Of a stretch of 64,000 nucleotides of DNA, positions 1,570 through 17,192 are shown one piece after another. The translations under genes and the position numbers were made by a program. Under the pieces are notes generated by a model. It was not told the DNA's origin. It did no database searches and saw nothing but the letters and a program-made list of their open reading frames with translations. Source of the stretch: Cypionkella sp. (GTDB lineage: Bacteria; Pseudomonadota; Alphaproteobacteria; Rhodobacterales; Rhodobacteraceae); the NCBI RefSeq assembly GCF_030652235.1, contig NZ_JAUSBA010000032.1, positions 32,862-96,861 of the forward strand. The letters run 5' to 3'. Each line of letters opens with the position of its first letter. Position 1 is the stretch's first letter.

Positions 1570-2907
1570 GTGGATTTCAGCAGCTTTGCGGCGTCATTTG
1601 GCGGTGCGGTTTGGTCGGGCCTGTTCTTCATCGTCGCGGTGGCGGTGATCGTGGCGGTGCATGAATACGGCCATTACATCGTTGGCCGCTGGTCAGGCAT
1701 CCATGCCGAGGTGTTCAGCTTGGGCTTCGGCCCGGTGGTCTATTCCCGCGTCGACAAACGCGGCACCAAATGGCAGATCGCAGCGCTTCCCATCGGCGGC
1801 TATGTGAAATTTTTGGGCGACAAAGACGCAGCCTCGGCCCCCGATCAGGCGGCTCTCAGGGGGCTTTCCGCCGAAGAACGCCGCCACACCATGACGGGCG
1901 CGCCGCTGTGGGCCCGTGCCGCGACCGTGGCAGCAGGCCCGATCTTCAACTTCATCCTCGCCCTGATCGTGTTCATCGGCCTGATCACCTACACCGGGGT
2001 TGCTACTGATGTCCCCGTGGTGGGCCGCGTCAATGCCTCGCCCTTTGTCGGCCAGACCATCCAACCCGGCGATCAGATTGTGGCGCTGAATGGCACCGCG
2101 ACGCCGGATATTGAAACGTTCGCCACCACCGCCAACGCATTGCCCGCCGCTGCCACCGTCACCTACAGCATTGAACGGGGTGGCCAAACGCTTGACGTGC
2201 AAGGCGCGCATCCGTTTCTGCCGATGGTGGGGGCGGTGATGCCGCGCAACGCCGGCGGTGACGCGGGCATCCAAGTCGGCGACGTGATCATCCAAGCCGC
2301 GGGCCAGGATGTCACCGCCTTCAGCCAGCTTCCCGCTTTGGTCGAGGCGACGCAAGGCCAACCCATCGCGCTGAAAATCTGGCGTGCGGGCGAAATCCTC
2401 GACCTGACGCTGTCGCCCAACCGCCGCGATCTGCCGAAAGATGGCGGTGGGTTTGAGACACGCTGGATGATCGGCCTGTCGGGCGGCATGTTGTTTCAGC
2501 CGCAAACCCGCCAGCCGGGGCCTTGGGAAACCGTCACCCTTGCCGTCGATCAAGCCTATTTCACCGCGAAATCCTCGCTGTCCGGGCTGTGGCACATCGT
2601 CACCGGCCAGATCAGCACCTGCAACCTGTCGGGCCCGGTCGGTATGGCCGAGGTGATGGGCGACGCCGCCCGCCAAGGGCTCGTGCAGTTCATCGGTTAT
2701 CTCGGCATGATGTCGCTGGGCATTGGCTTGCTCAATCTGTTTCCGATCCCGGTGCTCGATGGCGGCCATCTGGTGTTTTTCGCCTACGAGGCGGTGTTCC
2801 GCCGCCCGCCGGCACCCGGCGTGATGAATATCCTGATGCTGATCGGGCTTATGGCCGTGCTCAGCTTCATGTTCTTCGCTTTGGGCAATGATTTCACCTG
2901 CAAATAA
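1570..2907 (+). CDS. rseP: RIP metalloprotease RseP (site-2 protease)
   Basis: HEYGHY zinc motif, PDZ region, NLFPIPVLDGGHL motif; GTG start. Confidence 0.95.
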   Translation: MDFSSFAASFGGAVWSGLFFIVAVAVIVAVHEYGHYIVGRWSGIHAEVFSLGFGPVVYSRVDKRGTKWQIAALPIGGYVKFLGDKDAASAPDQAALRGLSAEERRHTMTGAPLWARAATVAAGPIFNFILALIVFIGLITYTGVATDVPVVGRVNASPFVGQTIQPGDQIVALNGTATPDIETFATTANALPAAATVTYSIERGGQTLDVQGAHPFLPMVGAVMPRNAGGDAGIQVGDVIIQAAGQDVTAFSQLPALVEATQGQPIALKIWRAGEILDLTLSPNRRDLPKDGGGFETRWMIGLSGGMLFQPQTRQPGPWETVTLAVDQAYFTAKSSLSGLWHIVTGQISTCNLSGPVGMAEVMGDAARQGLVQFIGYLGMMSLGIGLLNLFPIPVLDGGHLVFFAYEAVFRRPPAPGVMNILMLIGLMAVLSFMFFALGNDFTCK

Positions 2908-3004
2908 GGCCGGATGAACAGCGCTGGTAAACGACCCCAGCCACAGTGCTGCCACATTCCCGGCGTAGGTTTTTCCCATCGTGTGATGCGGAAAGGGCAA
3001 GACC

Positions 3005-3142
3005 ATGCAAGCCGTGATGAAAAGCTATAAAGGCCTGTCGCTTCTGGTTTGGTTGAACTGGGATCGCCTGTTCACCATCGGCACTGTGGTGGTCGGCCTG
3101 CTGGCGGGTGCCTTCCTTGGCACTGTATTGGTTCAGCCCTGA
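3005..3142 (+). CDS. Small putative membrane protein, 45 aa (MQAVMKSYKGLSLLVWLNWDRLFTIGTVVVGLLAGAFLGTVLVQP)
   Basis: Manual translation; below the ORF-track size cutoff; one predicted TM segment; sits between rseP and bamA. Confidence 0.55.
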   Translation: MQAVMKSYKGLSLLVWLNWDRLFTIGTVVVGLLAGAFLGTVLVQP

Positions 3143-11993: not shown

Positions 11994-16261
<4,268 letters not shown>

Positions 16262-16300: not shown

Positions 16301-16378
16301 GTTCTGCATGGGTTGTGTTCTCATAAGTTCACAAATGTTCTTACAAAGTTCTTTACATGCGGTTAAGAACATGAGAAC
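16301..16378 (+). promoter_or_regulatory. GTTC/GAAC array including LexA-type box GTTC-N7-GTTC (16337-16351)
   Basis: GTTC at 16301, 16317, 16327, 16337, 16348; GAAC at 16367 and 16375; 16337-16351 = GTTCTTACAAAGTTC. Confidence 0.55.
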
Positions 16379-16407
16379 AATATGGCAACAACCAAACGGA
16401 GGTCGCA

Positions 16408-16530
16408 ATGTTCACCGAGATTATCGAAATCCTGAAACGGTCCAACTCCAGCCTTATGGCCGAAGCTGTTGGAGTTGTTTCGCTGTTTGCGCTGCTTTTC
16501 GCCGGATTGGGCATGTCTGGTACGCTTTGA
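16408..16530 (+). CDS. Small putative membrane peptide, 40 aa (MFTEIIEILKRSNSSLMAEAVGVVSLFALLFAGLGMSGTL)
   Basis: Manual translation; strong SD GGAGGT at 16399-16404; one hydrophobic segment; not in ORF track because of size. Confidence 0.6.
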   Translation: MFTEIIEILKRSNSSLMAEAVGVVSLFALLFAGLGMSGTL

Positions 16531-16632
16531 AGGTTCTGCCTGCGGTCTTGTCGAACCGGGCCTGCGCATCTGTCCCCACGTGATGCGCCGCGTGGCTGCC
16601 CAGCCACTGCCTTGGTGAAAGAACGCCACTTT

Positions 16633-16668
16633 CCGCCGCCATCCGATTGGATGTGCGGCGGTTTTTTT
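16633..16668 (+). terminator. Rho-independent terminator
   Basis: CCGCCGCcATCC-gattgg region pairing with ATgtGCGGCGG followed by a run of 7 T. Confidence 0.7.
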
Positions 16669-17131
16669 ATGCGGCCTCTGCTTGCGCGGCAGCCTCGCAG
16701 GCGGCGTCCAGCGCCAAAAGAATAGAGGCGTGGCGATTCTTATACGCGCGCGCTGGGATTAATACTTCGTAACCTTGAAACGGGGCTGCGGGCACCGCGC
16801 CATTGTCTTTCAACATGGCGCGCAGCATCTCGCGCGCGGCCTCCAGTTCTGCAAGGCTTCGGCCCAGAATCACCTCACCCAAGATCGCCGCCGAGGCCTG
16901 ACCCAGCGCACAGGCTTTCACATCCTGCCCGAAATCGACAACACGGCCGTCTTTCATCACCACATCGACAGTCACCATTGATCCGCACAGCGGCGAACGC
17001 TTGCGCGCAGTCCCGGTTGGCGCGGGCAGGCGGCCCAGATGCGCAATATCGGCGGCCAGCGCCAAAATCCGCCCTGAATAGAGTGTGACAAGATCGCTGT
17101 CGCTGGATCTGACGAGATCACTATCGCTCAT
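16667..17131 (-). CDS. Iron-sulfur cluster assembly scaffold (SufU/IscU/NifU N-terminal type)
   Basis: CGSMVTVDVVMKDGRVVDFGQDVKACALGQASAAIL; start MSDSDLV at 17131 (ORF to 17209). Confidence 0.85.
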   Translation of the reverse strand: MSDSDLVRSSDSDLVTLYSGRILALAADIAHLGRLPAPTGTARKRSPLCGSMVTVDVVMKDGRVVDFGQDVKACALGQASAAILGEVILGRSLAELEAAREMLRAMLKDNGAVPAAPFQGYEVLIPARAYKNRHASILLALDAACEAAAQAEAA

Positions 17132-17192
17132 GGCTTCCCCTTTTCTAACCCGCAAGATAAGCCGATAGAACGCCTTCGCCAAGGAGAAGCCG

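Follow-up and report, generated by a model that had tools for sequence, protein, structure and literature searches.

A recG-linked peptide gene of the Rhodobacteraceae with predicted LexA control and a conserved structured RNA in its 3'UTR

Which gene could hold back cell division during DNA repair in the Rhodobacteraceae, a family for which no SOS division-checkpoint protein was found in the literature searched? The question is raised by an unannotated open reading frame (ORF) that is set between two housekeeping genes in the 64-kb stretch of Cypionkella DNA analysed here (the window), and on whose recG-adjacent locus the literature searched likewise yielded nothing. A preliminary description had proposed that this ORF encodes a small membrane peptide under LexA control. 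The locus has more parts than that description saw, which lacked the -35 element (16352-16357), a second operator (16375-16389) and a structured, covarying 3'UTR (16531-16668). We read the whole as a LexA-repressed SOS gene with one transcript, which would specify both a single-pass peptide with a role in division delay and a 3' regulatory RNA, and assign this reading a probability of roughly 0.6. The locus is a strong candidate for the missing 'stop dividing during repair' switch of the Rhodobacteraceae; it gives the checkpoint question one concrete gene, present in most genera, tractable marine roseobacters included, and would also be a case, spread across a family, of an mRNA under LexA control that has a structured RNA built into it.

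A conserved single-helix peptide gene behind recG

The ORF lies at 16408-16530 on the + strand and has 40 codons, in agreement with the preliminary description, and recG (14177-16261, + strand) is its constant upstream neighbor. A search with the single sequence recovered relatives in 62 of 298 Rhodobacteraceae genomes, which represent nearly one per genus, while a profile built from 30 relatives identified orthologs in 253 of the 298 genera (85%). The latter value is a lower bound, because in several genomes that lack a profile match, the corresponding position is occupied by a diverged ORF that shares the features of the gene. Beyond the Rhodobacteraceae, the class sample yielded two weak matches only and no convincing relative. 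The gene is almost always present in one copy per genome, and wherever recG could be located, its end lies directly upstream of the ortholog on the same strand, usually at a distance of ~75-250 nt and in one case of 623 nt. Among 126 distinct orthologs, the ORF is 38-43 amino acids long, with a single exception of 75 amino acids. Close ortholog pairs have a dN/dS of ~0.1-0.4, and M1, G22 and L34 are invariant across the orthologs, although G22 is written in four codons and L34 in six. Judged by these comparisons, in which changes are biased toward synonymous ones, the ORF is a protein-coding gene under purifying selection. No credible family match was obtained for the peptide in Pfam, NCBIfam, PHROGs or the PDB, and it is a new gene family within an established kind of system. 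The convergent IscU/NifU-like gene (16667-17146, - strand) is only 55% identical in a relative of the same genus (L002), whose recG and hisI are 93% and 90% identical to those of the window; gene exchange or relaxed constraint are possible reasons.

The single hydrophobic helix noted earlier is borne out by the prediction of one transmembrane helix and by AlphaFold2, which models residues 2-37 as one helix (pLDDT 84). The peptide is predicted to begin with a short cytoplasmic helix and to continue into one membrane helix that leaves hardly any residues beyond the membrane, and residues 20-34 contain just one charged residue in 106 sequences. Conservation along the peptide has a helical period, with the moment peaking at 100 degrees (p 0.00005), and the conserved face comprises R11, S12, T15, D19, G22, L26, L30, L34 and P37 in the family consensus. 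The hydrophobic moment of residues 20-37 is not significant (p 0.82) and the mean net charge of the orthologs is ~0. This pattern would fit contact with a specific protein better than a pore, and once inserted, the peptide would dock on a specific membrane partner protein by this single face.

Promoter and LexA-type operators

Upstream of the ORF, an array of the form GTTC-N6-GTTC-N7-GTTC (16327-16351, + strand) contains the LexA-type core GTTC-N7-GTTC at 16337-16351. By count alone, this box is unremarkable, with two occurrences in the window against 1.56 expected and 102 in the whole genome, fewer than for a reversed-pattern control. Its significance comes from conservation across orthologs rather than from its count: the exact core is found upstream of 124 of the 126 orthologs, compared to one of 962 control 250-nt windows from the same loci, and a third GTTC at 10-bp spacing upstream of the core is present in 110 of 124 promoters. 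The array directly abuts a -35 element, TTTACA (16352-16357), which is conserved in the ortholog logo and was reported independently by a sigma-70 scan (as TTTACA-18-AACAAT). A TG plus -10 region (TGAGAACAAT, 16372-16381; logo positions 35-44, 83-99% conserved) follows after a spacer of 17-18 nt, and transcription is predicted to start at ~16387, which leaves a 5'UTR of ~21 nt in the window. This short leader includes a Shine-Dalgarno sequence, GGAGG, at 16398-16402, confirming the strong ribosome-binding site of the preliminary description.

A second LexA-type operator, GAAC-N7-CAAC (16375-16389, + strand), lies over the -10 element and the start. Its general form GAAC-N7-NAAC was found in 123 of 124 promoters, and the second half is CAAC rather than GAAC in most members (112), while the exact GAAC-N7-GAAC occurs in three (L009, L030 and L119) and also in the divergent members L364 and L371. 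The same GAAC-N7-GAAC is carried by the promoters of nearly all lexA genes and of most recA genes in the 30 family genomes examined; LexA and RecA are encoded in the genome of origin, which has one LexA, and in all 30 relatives. An extended promoter motif, TGTTCTYANAAAGTTCTTTACA, has at least 118 matches across 85,462 genomes, and among the matches listed, 113 of 118 are followed by the peptide ORF, two are cut by the end of the locus, one comes from a weak member and two seem fortuitous, so that the motif marks the peptide gene almost exclusively among these matches. LexA control is strongly supported by this comparison as the simplest account of the promoter. The earlier proposal of a LexA-controlled small membrane peptide is thus well supported for the ORF and its box, and the two comparative checks named with it as possible refutations, on conservation of the ORF and of GTTC-N7-GTTC in relatives, did not refute it. 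It had over-read the flanking repeats, however: all of the copies it reported do occur (GTTC at 16301, 16317, 16327, 16337 and 16348, GAAC at 16367 and 16375), but only GTTC at 16327, 16337 and 16348 and GAAC at 16375 are conserved in the logo, and the supposed mirror of GTTCTCAT and ATGAGAAC is likewise not conserved among the orthologs.

LexA-type boxes were also seen elsewhere. In the genome of origin, a tandem GTTC-N7-GTTC-N7-GTTC is found where an apparent photolyase gene begins (L090, G000:C63:73173-73198), likely as another SOS promoter or as an in-gene coincidence. A YedK-like SOS peptidase ORF has a box ~38 bp ahead of it (L087, ~2335-3070), and GTTC-N7-GTTC adjoins an ImuB-like polymerase ORF (L089, ~1539); both ORFs were identified by eye and are plausible SOS genes.

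A structured RNA in the 3'UTR

The 3'UTR is conserved across orthologs up to a strong terminator, which in the window is formed by CCGCCGCCATCC...GGATGTGCGGCGG plus seven T residues (16633-16668, + strand). A hairpin plus T-run was found within 260 nt downstream of the stop codon in 116 of the 126 orthologs; a consensus scan missed the copy in the window, probably on account of its bulge. When all 3'UTRs were simply aligned with MAFFT, RNAalifold retrieved only this terminator, because the lengths of the 3'UTRs vary, and a covariance model was needed to capture the rest. Model R1, built from ten 3'UTR sequences, matches 67 of 100 loci. Every match immediately follows the peptide ORF on its strand, and no match was found anywhere else in the 272 kb searched; a further model, R2, extends the matches to most of the remaining loci. 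All 28 modelled pairs covary across the family, with changes on both sides keeping the pairing. Doubly changed paired cells number 348, against 83±8 in shuffles and 45-67 in slid controls, and the covariation score is 0.493 versus 0.158; as the alignment was made to fit the structure, the comparison is biased in favor of the latter, but the margin is still large. Compensatory change is visible when the second hairpins of L001, L003, L006, L008 and L023 are set side by side (GUGGC/GCCAC, CGGGC/GCCCG, AAGGU/GCCUU and GGGGC/GCCCC). C-rich motifs recur unpaired, namely CUGCCU(G), CUGUCCC, CUGCCUGUCC, GCCUC and UCCCA. On this comparative evidence, the 3'UTR is a conserved structured RNA, and with no match to Rfam, it is a new RNA element within a system of an established kind. 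Rfam hits to Ysr141 were rejected, being located in the recG stretch and scoring far below the gathering score.

This species carries a reduced variant of the RNA (16531-16628, + strand), made up of an unpaired CTGCCTG (16536-16542), a closing stem GCG-GTCTT / AAGAACGC (16542-16549 with ~16619-16626), a hairpin with a CTGTCCCC loop (16564-16588) and a hairpin with a TGCCC loop (16592-16607). Its match to the family model (16536-16664) is the best in the 64 kb, but reaches only 23 bits (E 0.017), with the 3' half aligning into the terminator, and with the terminator left out, its own fold does not reach significance (z -1.0). R2 gave no match over the whole genome of origin, though it found the locus within the window; this is probably due to the larger search space or to the first-look filter, so that further copies may exist in the genome. 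In one ortholog (L184, G158:C118), the LexA box is missing and the ORF extends to 75 amino acids, while the RNA model still matches (E 5e-6); this could mean that the RNA persists after loss of the promoter, or it could reflect an assembly error.

Possible roles of the peptide and the RNA

Taken together, the elements describe a single transcript of ~280 nt, from ~16387 to the terminator end at 16668, with two conserved products. LexA bound at the two operators, one upstream of the -35 element and the other over the -10 element and the start, would keep a good promoter off; upon DNA damage, RecA-driven cleavage of LexA would switch it on and yield one short mRNA, the 5' part of which would be translated into the 40-aa membrane peptide. 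Division delay is a recurrent role of SOS-induced single-helix peptides (SidA, YneA, SosA), and SidA of Caulobacter crescentus is an SOS-induced division inhibitor acting on FtsW/FtsN. The Rhodobacteraceae peptide resembles SidA in being a very small single-pass membrane peptide of an alphaproteobacterium under predicted LexA control, with one helix face conserved in the way expected of a protein contact, so that delaying division during repair, in the manner of SidA, is its most likely role. Division inhibition is plausible by this analogy and by the conservation pattern. The peptide differs from SidA in that it has no convincing relative outside the family in the class sample, and in that its gene is kept family-wide behind recG and carries a conserved 3' RNA. 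A further comparison is DidA of Caulobacter, a damage-induced single-helix membrane peptide of 71 amino acids (PMC4211646). Damage induction is predicted for the Rhodobacteraceae peptide as well, but DidA is SOS-independent, whereas the promoter described here has two LexA-type operators.

The 3' part of the transcript, a structured RNA with C-rich loops, would most likely have a regulatory function, whether or not it is first processed, and may act on other mRNAs; alternatively, the conserved 3'UTR could act in mRNA stability instead of in trans. A parallel is offered by DinR of Klebsiella, which derives from the 3' end of the LexA-controlled dinI mRNA and represses ftsZ (PMC10907235). Both cases have a small-protein mRNA under LexA control (predicted here) whose 3' part is a regulatory RNA (a candidate here), with a possible link to ftsZ; the RNA element described here is conserved and ends in a terminator. 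DinR is Klebsiella-specific and Hfq-dependent by experiment, while the Rhodobacteraceae RNA, known here from sequence, is conserved across the family with a covarying multi-hairpin fold. Within the same order, CcsR of Rhodobacter sphaeroides is RpoH-controlled. Pos19 of R. sphaeroides is RpoE-controlled, and Pos19 and CcaF1/CcsR are stress-induced transcripts that combine a small ORF with an RNA function (PMC5036791). Control by RpoE or RpoH, not SOS, sets Pos19 and CcsR apart.

The evidence can be weighed against three other accounts. A short hydrophobic peptide under predicted SOS control, with a structured RNA in the same locus, is also what a membrane toxin of the TisB/DinQ kind would offer, which would depolarize the membrane and slow growth while restrained by an antisense or structured leader RNA, and the preliminary description had drawn the parallel to TisB. 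TisB is a cationic, amphipathic, pore-forming peptide, however, and the absence of net charge and of a significant hydrophobic moment in the membrane segment disfavors this parallel. The 5'UTR of only ~20-30 nt is short and weakly folded and lacks an inhibitory fold, no antisense promoter was found in a scan that covers the sigma-70 type only, and single-copy vertical inheritance beside recG in 85% of genera is unlike that of patchy toxin-antitoxin modules. With these differences from TisB/DinQ in charge, amphipathicity, leader architecture and distribution, a toxin is quite unlikely. That the GTTC array is bound by another direct-repeat-binding regulator, such as an OmpR-family response regulator, in place of LexA is very unlikely: three repeats at 10-11 bp beside a -35 element do resemble response-regulator sites, and the A-rich spacer between the GTTCs is conserved beyond what LexA would need, but this A-tract, at ~-45 to -41, is placed where an UP element would lie, the exact LexA spacing is kept in 124 of 126 orthologs, and the second operator is placed as at recA and lexA, with the exact GAAC-N7-GAAC in some members. 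A regulator of the CenR type could be rejected, as the TGA-N8-TGA motif that CenR of Rhodobacteraceae recognizes (PMC9275681) does not fit the array.

It is doubtful, too, that the peptide is accessory and the RNA the main product, namely a small RNA under LexA control that would use its C-rich loops to occlude ribosome-binding sites, perhaps the one of ftsZ. The covariation of all 28 pairs, the conserved unpaired CUGCCUG, CUGUCCC and CUGCCUGUCC, and the precedent of Klebsiella DinR (PMC10907235) argue for this account, as does a conserved ftsZ site, ACAGGCGGACAG, which pairs over 7-8 nt with CUGCCUG; the peptide itself, in turn, is under strong purifying selection. The ftsZ site lies ~20 nt upstream of ftsZ (L373-L402) and is kept in most of 29 genomes, with variants in several. 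The pairing is better than that of ~90-94% of 1,086 control start regions, but the match was noticed post hoc and is equaled or beaten by 6-10% of the controls, and when the duplex with ftsZ was evaluated for the whole RNA, its energy did not stand out (median rank 0.57), so that the loop match is only a lead. It would be unlikely, on the present comparison, that the transcript blocks division twice, the peptide binding the divisome and the 3' RNA repressing ftsZ translation through its C-rich loops and ACAGGCGGACAG. Our preferred reading remains that of a SidA-like peptide whose LexA-repressed mRNA ends in a regulatory RNA.

Two observations on ftsZ may be added. The conservation of its ribosome-binding region is unusual for a leader, making this region a candidate site of post-transcriptional control. 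In one genome (G190, L382), the ftsZ leader reads CAGGTGG in place of CAGGCGG, and its perfect complement, CCACCTG, is present in the RNA (L044 3'UTR); this is one anecdotal case of possible co-variation between ftsZ and the RNA.
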